From: Thauera sp.
Lineage (GTDB): Bacteria; Pseudomonadota; Gammaproteobacteria; Burkholderiales; Rhodocyclaceae
DNA length: 50,358 nt
Assembly (NCBI GenBank): GCA_024235615.1
Contig: JACKMB010000011.1
Location: forward strand, 1-50,358
Direction of reading: 5' to 3'
Shown in pieces: positions 41,055-47,898 of the stretch. Within the stretch, counting starts at the first letter, position 1, and each line of letters opens with the position of its first letter. The position numbers and the translations under genes are program-made. The notes under the pieces are model-generated. The model had not been told where the DNA came from. It ran no database searches and was given only the letters and a program-made list of their open reading frames with translations.

Positions 41055-41225
41055 ATTCAGCGCGATCTGAAGATGTTCCGCAGGGTGGAACGATAGCCTG
41101 CCTCCAGGCGGCGTGTGCCGATGCGGGCGGGGCGGACGGAAAGCGTGTCGGCAGTCTTTACACATGACCCCCGGCAAGCGTCCTGGCGACGGACAAGGTA
41201 TTGATCTGGAAGGGAAGGGAAGGGA

Positions 41226-41241
41226 AGGCATTGAACTTGCT
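41226..41241 (+). promoter_or_regulatory. Sigma54 (-24/-12) promoter of the PEP-CTERM gene
   Basis: AGGCATTGAACTTGCT carries GG-N10-GC with correct spacing (GG 41227-41228, GC 41239-41240) and agrees with TGGCACG-N4-TTGCW at all but three defined positions. Transcription would start near 41252, leaving a 21-base leader with AAGGAG. Sigma54 control by PrsK/PrsR is known for PEP-CTERM genes in Zoogloea-like bacteria. No PrsR gene is in the window. Confidence 0.65.
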
Positions 41242-41272
41242 CCGATGCGCTGACCTAACCAAGGAGCCAATC

Positions 41273-41977
41273 ATGAAGCTGCATGCACTCGCCCTCTCCC
41301 TTGCGCTCTCCGCCATGTCGATGGGGGCGCAGGCCGCCGTCGTCGGCGTGTATGGGGGCTATCCCTCGAGCGTGTCCGTATCCGGCGGTCTCACCGGCCT
41401 GGGGCATTCCGTGGTTGACGTGGCCACTGCCGACGCGGCCAGCCTGGCCGGCCTGGATGCGTTGGTCATCGGGCGCAGCCAAAGCGGCAATGCCGCCATC
41501 ACCAGCTTCATCAACGGCGGCGGCATGCTTTTCACCGAGTGGAGCACCGCCTCGTACGGCATGAGCCTGCTCGGCGGCAGCGCAAGCGACAACTACGGCT
41601 CCTCTATGACCAACGACAGCGTCGTCTTCACTGCAGCCGGCATTGCTGCGGGGCTTGGTAACGTCTTGGGGACGAGCTATGCGGATGGCGGGGCGAGCGA
41701 GTTCTTCCAGGACTTCGGGACCCTGGGCAGTGGCACCGTCTTCGCAACGCGCGGTTCGAGCGGCGCAGCTGCGATCGTGGGCGGTGCGTACGGTAGCGGC
41801 TACGTCTGGGTCAATGGTTTCGACTGGGCCGACGGTCCGGGGCCGAACACCTTCCGCCTGATCGACAACCAGATCGATGCGCAGATTGGAACCGGGACCG
41901 TCCCCGAGCCGGCTACCCTGCTGCTGATGGGCGCCGGCCTCCTTGGTGCCGGCTTCGTGCGCCGTCGTTCGGCCTGA
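41273..41977 (+). CDS. PEP-CTERM sorting domain protein
   Basis: 234 residues from ATG 41273 with a strong AAGGAG site. Signal peptide (LALSLALSAMSMGAQA), a Gly/Ser/Ala-rich body, and a C-terminal sorting tail VPEPATLLLMGAGLLGAG followed by basic FVRRRSA. The tail is recognised by exosortase (EpsH/XrtA), which links such proteins to exopolysaccharide and floc formation. The body has no clear catalytic motif. No exosortase gene in the window. Confidence 0.9.
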   Translation: MKLHALALSLALSAMSMGAQAAVVGVYGGYPSSVSVSGGLTGLGHSVVDVATADAASLAGLDALVIGRSQSGNAAITSFINGGGMLFTEWSTASYGMSLLGGSASDNYGSSMTNDSVVFTAAGIAAGLGNVLGTSYADGGASEFFQDFGTLGSGTVFATRGSSGAAAIVGGAYGSGYVWVNGFDWADGPGPNTFRLIDNQIDAQIGTGTVPEPATLLLMGAGLLGAGFVRRRSA

Positions 41978-42313: not shown

Positions 42314-43174
42314 TTGTCCAGTGCGTCGAACGAGGCGATGCTTCAGAGCAAGACCACGACGGCCGCCAACCTGGGCGGCTTCATCGCCGATGCCGGGCTG
42401 CGTGTGCTGCTGCTGGACCTTGACGTGCAGCCCACACTGTCGAGCTACTTCACGCTGGACGTGCGCGCGCCCCGCGGCATTTACGAGATGCTGGCCTTCA
42501 ACGAGCGGCGCATCGAGCAACTGGTGTCGCGCACCGCGGTCGCGGGCCTGGACCTGGTGCTCTCCAACGACGACCGCGGCGAACTGAACACGCTGCTGCT
42601 GCACGCTCCGGATGGGCGCCTGCGACTGCGCCATCTGCTTCCCGTCTTCCGCACGCACTATGACTTGCTGTTGATCGACACGCAGGGCGCGCGCAGCGTG
42701 CTGCTGGAGATGGCGGTGCTGGCGTCCGACCTGGCGCTGTCGCCGGTGACGCCGGAAATCCTCGCGGCGCGCGAGCTGCGGCGCGGCACGCTGCAACTGA
42801 TCGAGGACATCGCGCCGTATCGGCACCTGGGCATCGAACCGCCGCCGCTGCGCCTGCTCATCAACCGTGTGCATCCGGTGTCGTCGAACGCGCGGCTGGT
42901 CCAGCAAGCGCTGCGACAGGTGTTCCAGGAACAGGCCGGCGTGCAGGTGCTGGACACCGACGTGCCGGCCATCGAAGCCTATCCGCGCGCTGCGACACGA
43001 GGATTGCCGGTGCATCGGGTGGAGTACCGGCGGCCGGCTGGGCGCACGGCGCCCGCGGCGCTGGACACCATGCGCACGCTGGCGGGCGAGCTGTTCCCCG
43101 CGTGGCGGGAGCGCTTCGCGCTGGTCACCGGCCGGGCCGATGCGGGAGGGGCCAGCCATGGCGAGCGCACATGA
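42314..43174 (+). pseudogene. parA: ICE ParA/Soj ATPase lacking the P-loop (5' truncated)
   Basis: 286 codons from ATG 42314. From TTTAANLGGFIADAGLRVLL onward it is a normal ICE-type ParA (LLDLDVQPTLSSYF Walker A' Asp; LLIDTQGARSVLLEM Walker B). The deviant Walker A of this family normally reads KGGxGKTT; here the preceding residues are EAMLQSKTTT, so the glycines and signature lysine are gone and only the terminal KTT remains. The frame is open upstream into the hsdM fragment, so the start is a chimera. Could be a pseudogene or a protein with altered ATP binding. Two genes later lies parB. Confidence 0.7.
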
Positions 43175-43394
43175 ACTGGCGCGCGGCCGTGAACGGCTGC
43201 GCGCGCTGATCGAGTTCGCGCTGGGCGAAGGCTGGCGCGTGGTGCGCACGTCCGGCGGGCACCTGAAATTCACGAAACCAGGCTGCGCGTCGATCTACAC
43301 CAGTTCGACTGCGAGCGACCACCGTGCCGACCGCAATGCCCGCGCGCAACTTCGCCGCGCCGACCGGCAGGCGCAGGAGAACGGCCGTGGCTGA
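43158..43394 (+). CDS. Small ICE protein between parA and parB (Shi position)
   Basis: 78 residues from ATG 43158 with a GGGAGGGG ribosome site, overlapping parA and parB. In ICEclc the gene at this place is shi, which with ParA stops division of transfer-competent cells; equivalence is by position and size. The middle, GWRVVRTSGGHLKFTKPG, resembles the HicA toxin pattern (GF, Arg, GSH, hydrophobic, Pro), including the His. Not proven to be HicA-like. Confidence 0.7.
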   Translation: MASAHELARGRERLRALIEFALGEGWRVVRTSGGHLKFTKPGCASIYTSSTASDHRADRNARAQLRRADRQAQENGRG

Positions 43395-45045
43395 GCTGAC
43401 GCCGCAGGACATGGCGGCCAAGCTGCTGGCCACCGGCTTCGAGCGCAGCGGCCCTTCGGCCGCGACCTTGAGCGACCCCATCGCCGACACGCCGATGGTG
43501 GTGACGCTGGACCAGTTGCGGCCCTACGACCACGACCCGCGCGTGACGCGCAACCCGGCCTATGCGGAGATCAAGGCGTCCATCCGCGAACGCGGGCTGG
43601 ACGCGCCCCCCGCGATCACGCGCAGGCCGGGCGAGGCGCACTACATCATTCGCAACGGCGGCAACACGCGGCTGGCGATCCTGCGCGAGTTGTGGAGCGA
43701 GACCAAGGAGGAACGCTTCTTCCGCATTGCGTGCCTGTTCCGCCCGTGGCCGGCGCGCGGCGAAATCGTGGCGCTGACCGGGCATCTGGCCGAGAACGAG
43801 CTGCGCGGCGGGCTGACCTTCATCGAGCGGGCCTTGGGCGTCGAGAAGGCGCGCGAGTTCTACGAGCAGGAAAGCGGCCAGGCGCTGTCACAGAGCGAAC
43901 TCGCGCGGCGGCTGACTGCCGACGGCTATCCGGTGCCGCAGTCACACATCAGCCGCATGAACGATGCGGTGCGCTATCTGCTCCCAGCGATCCCGACGCT
44001 GTTGTACGGCGGACTGGGCCGGCATCAGGTGGACCGGCTCGCGGTGCTGCGCAAGGCCTGCGAGCGCACCTGGGAGCGGCGTGCGCTGGGCCGCACCGTG
44101 ACCGTGGACTTCGCCACCTTGTTCCACGACGTGCTGACGCAGTTCGACACACAGCCGGACGACTTCTCGCCGCAGCGGGTGCAGGACGAGCTGGTGGGCC
44201 AGATGGCCGAGCTGCTGGAGGCGGACTACGACACGCTGGCGCTGGAGATCAACGACAGCGAAAGCCGCCAGCGTGCGCTGACCAGTGAACCAGCGGCACC
44301 GACGTCACCGGCGGCGCCTGTCGTGCCTGCTGCTCCTCCCCCGCCGGTCTCCGCGCCTCAGCAGCCACCCGCCTCGTCTGTGCCGCGCGACGCCACGCCC
44401 GTCGCGCGACCGGCGCCAGCAGCGACACCGCCTGCATCGCCCGAAGCGCCGGAGTACCAGCACGGGCAACGCGACGAGCGCTTGCAAGGGCACATCGTGA
44501 CACCGGCACCGACCACCGAGCGCCTGCAGTCCATCCAGAGGATGGTCGCGGACCAGCTCGGCGACAAGTTGCCCGACTTCGAGGCCGATGCGCTGCGTGC
44601 GATCCCCGTGCAGGTCGGCGGGCTCTATCCCATCTCGGACGTCTGGTACGTCGAGCCGGGGCTGGACGTGCCGGATCGCCTGCGCGTGCACATCGCGCAG
44701 TTCGCGCGCGAGATCGCCGGGGAAGCGGCGGTAGCCGATCACATCGAGGCCAGCGACGGCGGCATCGGCTTCCTCTGCGTGGCGCCGGCCGTGGGCCAGG
44801 CGAAGGCGCTGCCGGCGTTCGCGCGGGCGGTGCTGACCCTGCTGCATGCGCTGAGTGCGGCTCCGCCCTCCGCGAACGGATTGGACCGCGCGCGGCTGGC
44901 CGACGAGCTGGCGGCGCTGCTGCATGGCCACGGCGGCTCGGCCACACGCCTGAGCGATGCTGCGCTGGTGAAGCTGTTCCGTCTGCTGCGCCTGGCGCGC
45001 CGGCTGCTGGACCTGGAAGCCAGCGTAGCGGGCCAGGAATCCTGA
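43387..45045 (+). CDS. parB: ICE ParB-family protein
   Basis: 552 residues from GTG 43387, chosen because an AGGAG lies eight bases upstream and the product then starts MAELTPQDMAAKLLATGF; a frame extends to 43324. N-terminal ParB/Srx-like nuclease or CTP-binding region (LRPYDHDPRVTRNP; YIIRNGGNTRLAIL), helix-turn-helix (LSQSELARRLTADGYPVPQ), a Pro/Ala-rich linker near residues 295-360 and a conserved ICE C-terminal domain. Part of the parA-shi-parB cluster found at one end of ICEclc/PFGI-1-type elements. Confidence 0.88.
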   Translation: MAELTPQDMAAKLLATGFERSGPSAATLSDPIADTPMVVTLDQLRPYDHDPRVTRNPAYAEIKASIRERGLDAPPAITRRPGEAHYIIRNGGNTRLAILRELWSETKEERFFRIACLFRPWPARGEIVALTGHLAENELRGGLTFIERALGVEKAREFYEQESGQALSQSELARRLTADGYPVPQSHISRMNDAVRYLLPAIPTLLYGGLGRHQVDRLAVLRKACERTWERRALGRTVTVDFATLFHDVLTQFDTQPDDFSPQRVQDELVGQMAELLEADYDTLALEINDSESRQRALTSEPAAPTSPAAPVVPAAPPPPVSAPQQPPASSVPRDATPVARPAPAATPPASPEAPEYQHGQRDERLQGHIVTPAPTTERLQSIQRMVADQLGDKLPDFEADALRAIPVQVGGLYPISDVWYVEPGLDVPDRLRVHIAQFAREIAGEAAVADHIEASDGGIGFLCVAPAVGQAKALPAFARAVLTLLHALSAAPPSANGLDRARLADELAALLHGHGGSATRLSDAALVKLFRLLRLARRLLDLEASVAGQES

Positions 45046-45062: not shown

Positions 45063-45623
45063 ATGTCGGCACCGCACCCGCTCAACCAGGCCGTGATCGC
45101 CCAGGCCCTGCATGACCTGCGCAACGGCCAGTTGCGCCGCTGCAAGGCCATGGGCTTCGGTGACGAGGAGCTGGATGCGCTGAAGCACCCCGAACTCGTG
45201 AGCATGCTGGTGAATGCCACGGTGTCGTGGTGTTCGGTGTCGGTGAACCGGGAAGTGTTGAAGCGGCTGCTGAGCCAGGTGCACGACGTGGAGCGGGAGA
45301 TCGCCACGGTGGACCGTATGCTGCGCCTGGGGGCGAGCACGGAGATGGTCAGCAAGTTCTACGGCCTCACGCATCAGGAAGTGGCGCTGCGCCGCGACAT
45401 CCTCGGGCTGCCCAAGCGCAAGGGCCGGCATCCGGTGCTCGCCGAGGCGCAGGAGGTGGCCTTGTGGGAACGCTGGAAGGCCGGCATCACGGAGCGGCAG
45501 ATCGCGCTGAACGACGACATGGCGATGGTGGCGCTGACCATGGATCTGGCCGAGGCCATGACCCTGCCCATGTCGGTGATCTGGTCGGCGATACGGAACT
45601 GGATCGACCATGGGTTGGTATAG
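45063..45623 (+). CDS. DUF2857 family ICE protein
   Basis: 186 residues. The sequence (LHDLRNGQLRRCKAMGFGDEEL; VNREVLKRLLSQ; LGASTEMVSKFYGLTHQEV) is the DUF2857 family that follows parB in this ICE group. It contains a possible helix-turn-helix (MVSKFYGLTHQEVALRRDIL), so DNA binding is plausible. Function unknown. 17 bp after parB, 3 bp before the replication gene. Confidence 0.85.
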   Translation: MSAPHPLNQAVIAQALHDLRNGQLRRCKAMGFGDEELDALKHPELVSMLVNATVSWCSVSVNREVLKRLLSQVHDVEREIATVDRMLRLGASTEMVSKFYGLTHQEVALRRDILGLPKRKGRHPVLAEAQEVALWERWKAGITERQIALNDDMAMVALTMDLAEAMTLPMSVIWSAIRNWIDHGLV

Positions 45624-45626
45624 GCC

Positions 45627-46820
45627 ATGACCACGGGCGGCGCACCACGGCGCGAAGGCCCCGTTGCGCTGTCCGCGCTCTTCGACGAGGCCCTGCAGCA
45701 CCTGCAGCCGGCGCAGGGAACGGCGCCGGCCGCCGACGGTTTCCTCTACAGCGGCAACCGCCATGAGAGCGTGCCGCGCAGGCTGTTCCTCGACCGGCGC
45801 CTGACGCCGCTGGAGCGAAACGCCTGGCAGGTGTTCCGCCTGCAGCTCAACGACGACGGCGTGACCGCCTTTCCCACCTACGACCAGCTCCGCCCCTATC
45901 TGGCGTCCATGCCCTGTGCGGCGCAAGCCTCGCACGAGACCGTGGCGCGCGCCTTGACGCTGCTGCGGCTGACGCGCTGGCTCAGCCTGGTGCGGCGGCG
46001 GCGCGATCCCAAGACCGGCCGTATCCAAGGCAACCTCTACGTGCTGCACGACGAACCGCTGTCGCCCTTCGAGGCGATGCAGCTCGACCCGGACTACCTG
46101 GGCCTGGTGAGTCAGGCGCTCACGCACGCGGCGAAGGCGGTGCAGGTCGTGGGCATGAACACGCTGCGAGAGATCGCCGAAGACCCGCTGCTCAGCGGGC
46201 GCACGCTGCCGACCCGTCTGCAAGTGCTGGCGCAGCGCATGGCGCGGCATGGCTGGACGACGCCAGGTTATCCACAGGAGGGTGCGGACCACGAATCCGA
46301 AGAAGGCCAGGAAGCCCTGCTTCGGAATGACGCGCGCCCGTCTTCGGAATCCGAAGCAGGGCCGAAACCCGCGCCGGACGGCTCTCTTCGGATTCCGAAG
46401 GAGGACCGTACAGTACGTAATGATCGTATAAATGAAGTACGTACAGTACCGCGCGCGAGGGCCTTGCAGAACCTGCGGCTGCCCGAGCGTTTCCTGCGCT
46501 TGAAGGACGAGCAGCAGGCCGGCGCGCTGGTGGCGCTGCAGCAGGTGGACGAGGCGCAGCGGCAGGCCGTGCTCGACGAGTGGGCGGCACGCTGTGGCGG
46601 CAGTACGGTGCGCAATCCCGCCGGCTACTTGTTCGGCATCATCCAGAAGGCGATCCGCGGGGAGTTCAAGGCGTGGGCGGGCAACGACGCAGCAGCGCCG
46701 CCCGCGCCGCGAGCTGCGGGGCCGGCGCCATCGTCGTCGCCTTCGGCTTCCCGCCCAGCCGACCCCGAGGTGGCGCGCGCCTACCTCGCACGGCTGCGTT
46801 CAGCCTTGCGCGATCCCTGA
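45627..46820 (+). CDS. STY4528-type ICE replication protein
   Basis: 397 residues. Belongs to the pathogenicity-island replication protein family of ICEclc/PFGI-1-like elements. N-terminal part has a winged-helix-like region (LTPLERNAWQVFRLQLNDDG; AQASHETVARALTLLRLTRW) and the C-terminal part contains LQQVDEAQRQAVLDEWAAR, typical of this family. Between them lies an acidic low-complexity linker whose DNA holds a DnaA box, iterons and an AT-rich run (46268-46449), listed separately. Initiator function is by family and by this arrangement. Confidence 0.85.
   Translation: MTTGGAPRREGPVALSALFDEALQHLQPAQGTAPAADGFLYSGNRHESVPRRLFLDRRLTPLERNAWQVFRLQLNDDGVTAFPTYDQLRPYLASMPCAAQASHETVARALTLLRLTRWLSLVRRRRDPKTGRIQGNLYVLHDEPLSPFEAMQLDPDYLGLVSQALTHAAKAVQVVGMNTLREIAEDPLLSGRTLPTRLQVLAQRMARHGWTTPGYPQEGADHESEEGQEALLRNDARPSSESEAGPKPAPDGSLRIPKEDRTVRNDRINEVRTVPRARALQNLRLPERFLRLKDEQQAGALVALQQVDEAQRQAVLDEWAARCGGSTVRNPAGYLFGIIQKAIRGEFKAWAGNDAAAPPAPRAAGPAPSSSPSASRPADPEVARAYLARLRSALRDP
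46268..46449 (+). other. Putative replication origin inside the rep gene
   Basis: Elements in order: a perfect DnaA box TTATCCACA (46268-46276); half-palindromes GAATCCGAAG (46293-46302) and CTTCGGAATG (46320-46329); full palindromes CTTCGGAATCCGAAG (46342-46356) and its reverse complement (46386-46400), with B, C and D centres at 22- and 44-bp steps; two exact direct repeats CGTACAGTAC (46407-46416 and 46440-46449), 33 bp apart, around an AT-rich stretch (46417-46440, 29% GC by count). Codons 46407-46448 are 14 in a row ending in A or T. The layout recalls lambda O, whose gene contains the origin. Confidence 0.55.
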
Positions 46821-46821
46821 G

Positions 46822-46838
46822 CGATCCCCAGGGGATAG
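46822..46838. repeat. ICE palindrome, copy 1
   Basis: CGATCCCCAGGGGATAG, one mismatch to the CTATCCCCAGGGGATAG form, immediately after the replication gene stop. Flanking bases continue to match the second copy for about 42 bp in all. Confidence 0.8.
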
Positions 46839-46876
46839 ACGGAACAGGTCGCCTTCCGGCTGGGGGAGCAGACCGC

Positions 46877-46906
46877 TTGGAACTGTGCTCAAACTGTGCG
46901 TATAAT
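46877..46906 (+). promoter_or_regulatory. Promoter with GTGC repeats before the toxin-antitoxin pair
   Basis: TTGGAA (46877-46882), 18-bp gap, perfect TATAAT (46901-46906). AACTGTGC occurs twice within it (46881-46888 and 46892-46899), and a third GTGC follows at 46907-46910, in about one helical turn each, as expected of an operator for autorepression by the antitoxin. Start near 46913, 28 bases before the ATG. Confidence 0.65.
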
Positions 46907-46940
46907 GTGCTCGTGATTCCTTGCCTTTGGGAGCAACGTC

Positions 46941-47312
46941 ATGGCCTCTACCGCTTTCGCGGATGTGCTCGAATCGGTGCGTGAAGCCGGCACGTCCCGC
47001 TTTTCCGCCACGAACGTCGCCGATGCCCTGGGCCTGCAGTACCAGGATCTGGCCACGCTGGCTGGCGTGCACCGCAACACCCTGCGCACCCACCCCGAGT
47101 CACCGCGACTCCAGGCCGCGCTGCGTGATCTGATGCGGGTGCTATCGGCCGCCTCGGCGGTGCAGCCGGATACCGCACGTGCGTTCTTCATGGTCAAGAA
47201 CGAGCCCATCCCGGCGTTCCACCACAAGACCCTGCTGCAGTTGGTGCAGGAAGGACGCACCGACGATGCGATCGACTACCTGGAGTCGATCAGTGCAGGG
47301 TTCACCGGATGA
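46941..47312 (+). CDS. Xre/MbcA/ParS-type antitoxin
   Basis: 123 residues. N-terminal helix-turn-helix-like part (FSATNVADALGLQYQDLATL; GVHRNTLRTHPES) and a C-terminal DUF2384-type toxin-binding segment (ARAFFMVKNEPIPAF; TDDAIDYLESISAGFTG). Pairs with RES toxins. It sits upstream of and overlaps the toxin by ATGA, the usual order for this type. Confidence 0.88.
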   Translation: MASTAFADVLESVREAGTSRFSATNVADALGLQYQDLATLAGVHRNTLRTHPESPRLQAALRDLMRVLSAASAVQPDTARAFFMVKNEPIPAFHHKTLLQLVQEGRTDDAIDYLESISAGFTG

Positions 47313-47836
47313 TCCTCCTCGACCTGCCGCCCGGCACCACGCTATTTCGCGCGCACACCCCGCAGTGGGCCAGCCGGCCCACCAGCGGCGCCGGTGCGGC
47401 GGCCAAGGGCGGGCGCTTCAACCGGGAGGGCGTCGAGGCGCTGTATCTGTCGCTGGAGGAAGCGACCGCGCTACGCGAATACCAGCAGACCTCGCCCTTC
47501 CTGCCGCCCTGCACGATGTGCTCGTACACCGTGGCATTGCGCGAGCTGGTCGATCTGCGGCAGCTCCACCGCGGCGAACCTTGGGACGAGCTGTGGCACG
47601 ACTGGCGCGAGGACTGGCGCCATCTGAAATTCGACCTTCACATCGAGCCGCCCACCTGGGTGCTGGGCGACATGGTGCTGGCCCAGGGCCATACCGGAAT
47701 CCTGTTCCCCAGCCAGGCGAACGATGGCGGCACCAATGTCGTGGTGTTCGTGGATCGGCTCAGGGATGGCAATTCGGTCGAGGCCAACGATCCCGACGGG
47801 CGACTGCCCCGCGACCAATCCAGTTGGACGCGCTGA
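47309..47836 (+). CDS. RES-family NAD-degrading toxin
   Basis: 175 residues. RES toxins (MbcT, ParT) attack NAD+ or ADP-ribosylate targets and stop growth. The family R, E and S are in GGRFNREG, the SLEEATALREYQQ region and a later Ser. The C-terminal ILFPSQANDGGTNVVVF block is also typical. Neutralised by the upstream antitoxin. Inserted between the replication gene and the TIGR03761 gene of the ICE, probably as an addiction module. No lesion seen. Confidence 0.88.
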   Translation: MILLDLPPGTTLFRAHTPQWASRPTSGAGAAAKGGRFNREGVEALYLSLEEATALREYQQTSPFLPPCTMCSYTVALRELVDLRQLHRGEPWDELWHDWREDWRHLKFDLHIEPPTWVLGDMVLAQGHTGILFPSQANDGGTNVVVFVDRLRDGNSVEANDPDGRLPRDQSSWTR

Positions 47837-47881
47837 CTCCACGGCGCGGATTCGCACTCCACCCTTCGGCCCGCCGCTGAG

Positions 47882-47898
47882 CTATCCCCAGGGGATAG
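47882..47898. repeat. ICE palindrome, copy 2
   Basis: CTATCCCCAGGGGATAG, extended by G and C on the two sides to 19 bp (47881-47899). Lies 45 bp after the RES toxin stop and 121 bp before the TIGR03761 gene. The gap contains nothing else I can name. Confidence 0.85.

Follow-up and report, generated by a model that had tools for sequence, protein, structure and literature searches.

In phage lambda the replication origin lies inside gene O, where palindromic iterons followed by an AT-rich part occupy the coding sequence of the protein's linker. We describe here an element with a similar plan in a 50,358-nucleotide stretch of DNA from Thauera sp. (contig JACKMB010000011.1; the whole stretch is referred to as the window), which carries a truncated copy of an integrative and conjugative element (ICE) of the same family as ICEclc. 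The element is located in the linker of the ICE replication-protein gene (rep), a member of the STY4528 family, and its best reading is a Rep-driven origin: we estimate a probability of about 60% that the linker doubles as the vegetative replication origin (oriV), embedded in rep. It is unlike lambda in its different palindromes, in its DnaA box, in belonging to an element that integrates and conjugates, and in being a predicted origin.

Origins within initiator genes have been described in plasmids, and a putative oriV has been placed at this ICE locus. In Rhizobium etli plasmid p42d, oriV lies inside the initiator gene repC, as proposed here, and silent mutations of its AT-rich region abolish replication, but it has no iterons or DnaA boxes, unlike the window linker with its candidate iterons and DnaA box (PMC3155836). 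In IncU plasmid RA3, similarly, the initiator gene contains oriV at its 3′ end, although the initiator and its control are different (PMC9455977). Closer to the window is PFGI-1, for which a putative oriV was predicted with the same palindrome core in the same place as in the window linker, together with 46-bp repeats downstream of rep; the authors state that PFGI-1 encodes no Rep, and their oriV section describes neither embedding in the rep gene nor synonymous constraint (PMC2647930). The putative oriV of ICEHin1056 was called consistent with those of pKLC102, SPI-7 and PAPI (PMC2258188), and replication has been reported for members of the ICE group (PMC4489591). Origins embedded in rep genes were known before, as was a putative oriV at this locus; new, as far as the literature showed, are constraint at base resolution, a clade-wise turnover of palindromes, and a widely kept AT-rich dyad. 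No description of an origin inside an STY4528 gene was found in the literature searched, which did not cover most subscription journals.

Constraint on the DNA of the STY4528 linker

The linker contains a single DnaA box, followed by two half palindromes, two exact palindromes, and an AT-rich module in which a core is flanked by inverted arms (Table 1). A 10-bp repeat, CGTACAGTAC, is present at 46407 and 46440, 33 bp apart, and 14 consecutive codons (46407–46448) end in A or T, in a gene whose GC content at third positions is 0.85 outside this run; no run of this kind arose in 20,000 shuffles of the codons. A preliminary description of this DNA had listed these motifs and proposed from them an origin within the gene, and all of them are present where it had placed them.

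On chance alone, the palindrome at relaxed matching and the lone DnaA box are weak evidence. At least one DnaA box occurs in 24 of 100 shuffles of the window, so that a single box is unremarkable by itself, and two palindrome matches with up to three mismatches occur in 28 of 100; genome-wide, with up to two mismatches, the palindrome is present at 5 places and a control pattern at 9. The two window palindromes are the sole exact copies in the genome, the other three places having two mismatches and lying on other contigs. When rep was shuffled among synonymous codons, none of 60 shuffles matched its 15-bp inverted pair, and 4 of the 60 had as many short palindromes. It is the conservation in relatives that places the motif set well beyond chance.

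This conservation was assessed with 110 homologous loci, 30 from genomes of the family (63 of 297 genomes matched, 46 of them over the cut-off, with the best of these supplying the loci) and 80 that ranked best among 304 relatives. With the window these give 111 genes, 88 of them distinct; removal of three short ones (L035, L036 and L108) leaves 86 distinct clc-like genes, which were reduced to 55 representatives at less than 97% nucleotide identity. There are several prominent features. First, in codons 215–275, 0.897 of the pairs with identical amino acids also have identical codons, as against 0.713 elsewhere (Mann-Whitney p 1.7e-14, a value that treats codons as independent and ignores shared ancestry), and the best-conserved run of 60 codons begins at codon 213. 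Second, synonymous identity among the 55 representatives averages 0.969 at the 26 third positions inside motifs, 85% of which are fully invariant, as against 0.848 at other linker positions and 0.710 in the rest of the gene; the motif value was reached by 0 of 20,000 amino-acid-matched resamplings, which compare sites within one sequence set. The repeats and A/T-ending codons, whose conservation in homologues the preliminary description had named as the check on its proposal, are thus clearly kept among close relatives. Third, the clearly variable motif codons are just two, 262 and 273, and both hold the center base of GTACnGTAC. Fourth, all 55 representatives retain the 5′ T of the DnaA box, in codons for five amino acids (Gly, Ser, Asp, Thr and Asn), and the first base outside the box, the third base of a Gln codon, varies in 4 of 55. 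Fifth, insertions or deletions relative to the window are found in none of 85 genes in codons 214–261 and in 3 in codons 214–275; the corresponding counts are 70 in codons 2–40 and 77 in codons 346–396 at the gene ends, and none in codons 40–150, 6 in codons 150–213 and 3 in codons 276–345, so that the linker behaves like the folded parts of the protein and unlike its loose ends. Finally, the lowest-GC 36-bp segment of the gene falls within the AT-rich module in 84 of the 86 clc-like genes.

Because the motif codons are almost frozen and the variable ones coincide with a free center base, the linker is a cis-acting DNA element, and selection on it at the DNA level in close relatives is, on these comparisons, close to certain. 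Two attributes of an embedded origin are found: cis-acting DNA within the initiator coding sequence, indicated by the synonymous constraint at motif bases, and an adjacent AT-rich region that is a candidate unwinding element.

Table 1. Features of the STY4528-family gene, its linker and the neighboring ICE genes (window coordinates).
Feature	Coordinates	Strand	Basis
Linker, codons 214–275, synonymously constrained	46266..46451	+	Codon identity and indel counts in close relatives
DnaA box TTATCCACA	46268..46276	+	Identical in 54/55 representatives
Half palindrome TCCGAAG	46296..46302	-	Codons 224 and 225: third bases invariant
Half palindrome CTTCGGAAT, 22 bp before palindrome 1	46320..46328	+	Codons 232–234: synonymous identity 1.0, 1.0, 0.93
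Palindrome 1 CTTCGGAATCCGAAG, candidate iteron	46342..46356	.	Exact; base-level conservation
Palindrome 2 CTTCGGATTCCGAAG, candidate iteron	46386..46400	.	Exact; 44 bp from palindrome 1
Left arm GTACAGTACGTA of AT-rich module	46408..46419	+	11/12 complementary to right arm; free center base in codon 262
AT-rich core, candidate unwinding element	46417..46437	+	28.6% GC
Right arm TACGTACAGTAC of AT-rich module	46438..46449	-	Free center base in codon 273
STY4528-family replication-protein gene (397 aa), hosts the element	45627..46820	+	Open reading frame and NF040582 match
DUF2857 gene (BisC homologue)	45063..45623	+	PF11198, E 6.7e-63
ICE ParB gene (BisD homologue), possible alternative palindrome reader	43324..45045	+	TIGR03764, E 4.8e-120
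parA remnant	42348..43174	+	Relatives' homology begins at 42348, inside Walker A region

Palindromes and AT-rich dyads in distant relatives

Forty distant loci were fetched, 39 of them with an open reading frame (L145 has none), and 24 of the linkers were inspected, one of which (L111) was mis-cut. The linker peptides differ widely between clades, and many share a common plan of palindromic repeats followed by an AT-rich core between inverted arms. The palindromes are clade-specific: CTTCGGAWTCCGAAG in the clc-like clade, GTTCGGnnnCCGAAC in Pantoea, Erwinia and Salmonella pSGI4, AGTTCCnnnnnGGAACT in ICEHin1056, and AAGTTCAAAATTTGAACTT or GTGTGCAAATATTGCACAC in further distant members. In pKLC102, the DNA of the STY4528 reading frame contains four phased copies, GTTCGGATGCCGAAC three times plus GTTCGGCATCCGAAC. 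Phased palindromes are present in the window and in many distant members and absent from some. Among 15 members with TTCGG-type palindromes, the steps between palindrome centers are 33, 44–45 or 54 bp, with 22 and 32 bp to the half sites of the window, and the last step is 44–45 bp in all 15 (three matches with two mismatches, in the window, L120 and, 177 bp downstream, L149, were set aside as spurious in this count). In 22 of the 39 distant genes, 9-mers are repeated more than in any of 100 synonymous shuffles, although in some (such as L139 and L130) these are partly simple or C-terminal repeats. There is no exact match to the PFGI-1 palindrome in viral contigs.

The AT-rich dyad recurs widely. 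In 29 of the 39 distant genes the 36-bp segment of lowest GC touches one of the arm motifs, and in the 33 distant genes scored for AT-looped inverted repeats the best repeat has arms of GTAC type or GTAGTAGT type in 19, consists of the palindromes themselves in 10, and is neither in 4; in a control search the first half of the gene also yields such a repeat in 8 of 33. The peptide SSYINKTTTT recurs because GTAGTAGT and ACTACTAC surround the core. Pairs of GTAC- or GTAG-type arms are found also in genes without ICE ParB.

The relatives include a 92%-identical rep in a record labeled Phycisphaerae (L054, perhaps a binning error) and a 74%-identical rep on an alphaproteobacterial Tistrella megaplasmid (L154).

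A candidate origin and its rivals

A replication origin would account for these features as follows. The N-terminal helix-turn-helix domain of Rep would bind the palindromes, which, at about 2, 3 and 4 helical turns apart, would lie on one face of the helix; in this lineage, the single box upstream would be a docking site for host DnaA; the AT-rich core, flanked by the GTACnGTAC arms, would open; and the C-terminal domain of Rep would help to load a DnaB helicase, for which some relatives have a dnaB gene of their own. The initiator would be inherited together with its origin as one gene, and replication would be transient and plasmid-like after excision, alongside that driven by relaxase and oriT. 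The help from host DnaA suggested by the preliminary description fits the close relatives, with the box intact in 54 of 55 representatives, but not the distant genes at large, 11 of 39 of which contain a consensus box, six of these being clc-like. We count in support of an origin the constraint at base resolution, the fixed spacing, the different palindromes in the same linker, the repeated 9-mers, the arm pairs, the matches of distant members to HTH_36 and O-like families, the relatives on plasmids, the replication reported within the ICE group, and the prediction of oriV in PFGI-1.

The protein evidence differs between the window and its distant relatives. The window protein belongs to the STY4528 family, matching NF040582 (STY4528_fam) over positions 1–323 of 323 with E 3.2e-123 and 412 bits, above the curated cut-off of 130; its replication role, taken from the annotation name, is putative. 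When 24 family members were scanned against Pfam and PHROGs, HTH_36 was matched by 5 (best 1.3e-10), all of them distant, and RP-C_C weakly by 6 (best E 0.045), and a few distant members matched PHROGs for 'replication initiation O-like' or initiation families. The analogy with lambda O drawn in the preliminary description gains some sequence support from these distant members but none from the window protein, which matches neither HTH_36 nor an O-like family and has one weak match to a PHROG of unknown function. A profile of the 24 members against sequences in the Protein Data Bank (PDB) gave a single match, to a ribosomal protein (E 0.021), which was taken as chance.

Relatives of the protein are present on 33 of 72,556 plasmid records. 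The 95.5 kb circular plasmid of Stutzerimonas stutzeri XX1 carries dnaB, ssb, a topoisomerase gene, parA and parB, with mobH about 43 kb from rep, and its gene table, which is stated to be incomplete, lists no other initiator.

Several observations weigh against an origin in the linker. No Pfam family matches the window protein at E values up to 1, and its predicted structure, from a 29-sequence alignment, has a pLDDT of 45.6; since a Foldseek search of this model against the PDB also gave no match at E ≤ 0.001, we make no claim about its fold. Pantoea pNBBC01-4 has a second annotated initiator, and the minimum of GC skew in three plasmids lies near rep in only one, that of Stutzerimonas A252, about 1.4 kb from the rep center. 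A generic inverted-repeat shuffle test gave at most 1 of 60 in 17 of the 39 distant genes, but a stricter test for families of like palindromes gave at most 1 of 40 in only 5 (L112, L144, L148, L149 and L150), and L112 and L144 pass through GC-rich matches unrelated to the array; the stricter test has low power, having missed arrays that are visible (L119, L152). For ICEclc, copy number in transfer-competent cells drops without traI or oriT1, a relaxase-based replication in the same ICE family, though residual foci in the mutants may leave room for a second mode (PMC6561031). The window copy itself is truncated inside parA at 42348, with alpA and the adjoining ICE end missing there, so that the earlier statement that this ICE replicates cannot be made of this copy; rep and its linker are intact. 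The remaining such observations, on genes lacking palindromes, bear also on the main rival.

That rival, which we judge unlikely, is that the ICE ParB (BisD) reads the palindromes, two genes downstream of parB, as a parS-like centromere, the AT-rich module alone belonging to Rep. The sites of other ParB proteins are palindromes, and those considered here are located near parB. Nine STY4528-like genes with no neighboring ICE ParB (L111–L117, L123 and L124) have no clade-type palindromes and no excess of repeats (three GC-rich dyads in L112 were not counted as like palindromes); seven of these are from genomes without a TIGR03764 match and two, L112 and L115, from genomes with ParB elsewhere. 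The AT-rich dyad is kept in this group, with exact GTACGTA...TACGTAC in 7 of 9 and a codon identity there of 0.97–1.00, among the highest of the gene. L140, with the fuller type of Rep and a AGTAGTAGT...ACTACTACT pair, likewise has no like palindromes, and its genome (95% complete) is without ParB. Each of 8 plasmid records examined carries both rep and parB. The AT-rich module thus follows Rep and the palindromes tend to follow ParB, but the match is imperfect. L132–L137 have ParB next door and yet no like palindromes in the shuffle test (L132 and L134, read by eye, have degenerate repeats only), whereas L143 keeps its repeats without a ParB match, in a genome 87% complete, its near-twin L144 having ParB. 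The TIGR03764 search left 10 of 28 genomes without a match (6 of 20 and 4 of 8), two of which are only 52% and 87% complete. Moreover, the N-terminal GNxHxxxP motif of Rep, present in L140, is lacking in the six aligned members of the palindrome-less nine, and the helix-turn-helix regions of ParB and Rep, compared as palindrome readers, both vary. Sites in helical phase (22/33/44/54 bp), the last step being 44–45 bp and next to an AT-rich core, are commoner in initiator arrays than in parS.

A rather improbable alternative is that Rep binds the linker to control copy number or to regulate its own gene, and that replication in fact starts at another place, such as the array downstream of pKLC102 rep, where 15.2 copies of a 57-bp unit directly follow the stop codon (L149:2870–3735); the 46-bp repeats of the predicted PFGI-1 oriV occupy this place too (PMC2647930). 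However, repeats of at least 12 bp were found neither within each of the two intergenic stretches of the window nor in L091, in which about 173 bp separate rep from the first PFL_4669 motif, whereas the 55 close representatives show few changes in the linker motifs.

Still less probable is control of the downstream transfer genes from the linker, either through an operator bound by the BisDC activator or through an internal promoter. BisDC corresponds to the products of parB and the DUF2857 gene (PMC9286271, PMC7423338), whose homologues lie directly upstream of rep. We rejected this as the main explanation because there is no other copy of the palindrome within two mismatches on the contig and, for the 27-bp motif of the transfer-competence promoters of ICEclc, no further significant match on that element is reported, BisDC binding itself being unconfirmed there (PMC9286271). 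Constraint on protein, codons or RNA structure without an origin is very improbable, for although the two palindromes can pair as one strand (z −4.1 with DNA folding parameters, the AT-rich module alone being unremarkable at z −1.6), a DnaA-box base is invariant across different amino acids at codon 214, the free bases fall exactly at the GTACnGTAC centers, and linker residues change between clades while palindromes or the AT core persist.

Surroundings of the element and the wider ICE family

The ICE parB and DUF2857 genes lie upstream of rep, and PFL_4669 and DUF3158 genes downstream. All 6 of the longer relatives begin to align at the same base, 42348, with the shorter locus L007 stopping short of it, and the contig ends at 50358. 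An open reading frame upstream of this junction (41201–41977) has by eye a PEP-CTERM-like sorting signal at its end. Between rep and PFL_4669 (46824–47896), a palindrome, ATCCCCAGGGGAT, is present twice, at 46824 and 47884, on either side of an Xre/RES toxin-antitoxin pair. Among 24 relatives this gap ranges from about 173 bp (L091, with one palindrome) to about 3.9 kb (L096), some lacking the palindrome, and it resembles a spot of cargo exchange.

In ICEclc, orf96323 seems, from the names of deletions, to be located between bisC and inrR (PMC7423338); we presume it to be the rep homologue. The ICEHin1056 gene at the STY4528 place (L150:2477–3700) seems, by its size and place, to be orf5, which is listed as ssb and was not mutated, while mutants of orf3 and orf4 transfer up to 100,000-fold less (PMC3739013). 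STY4528-like genes are also present at L176:5500–6372 and L177:11836–12348, in genomes without ICE ParB and near one shared reading frame. This frame looks integrase-like, as we presume, and the two genes possibly belong to another class of element that shares this initiator.

A broader proposal, which we hold only tentatively and consider somewhat doubtful, is that the whole pKLC102/ICEclc/SPI-7 superfamily consists of plasmid-like replicons with the origin in the STY4528 linker, whose amino acids would largely be a by-product of the origin; the type of iteron would turn over by clade together with Rep, giving incompatibility groups, and replication would have two modes, one Rep-driven and one relaxase-driven. 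The ICE family is widespread, and its cargo is catabolic, resistance and virulence genes. Multiplication of ICEclc after excision has been ascribed to the relaxase (PMC6561031), and the 182-bp element described here points to a possible second, Rep-driven mode. Reading the linker as an origin would also give a candidate Rep to PFGI-1, an element said to be without one (PMC2647930). If the broader proposal is true, the incompatibility groups of these elements would be predictable from their linker DNA.
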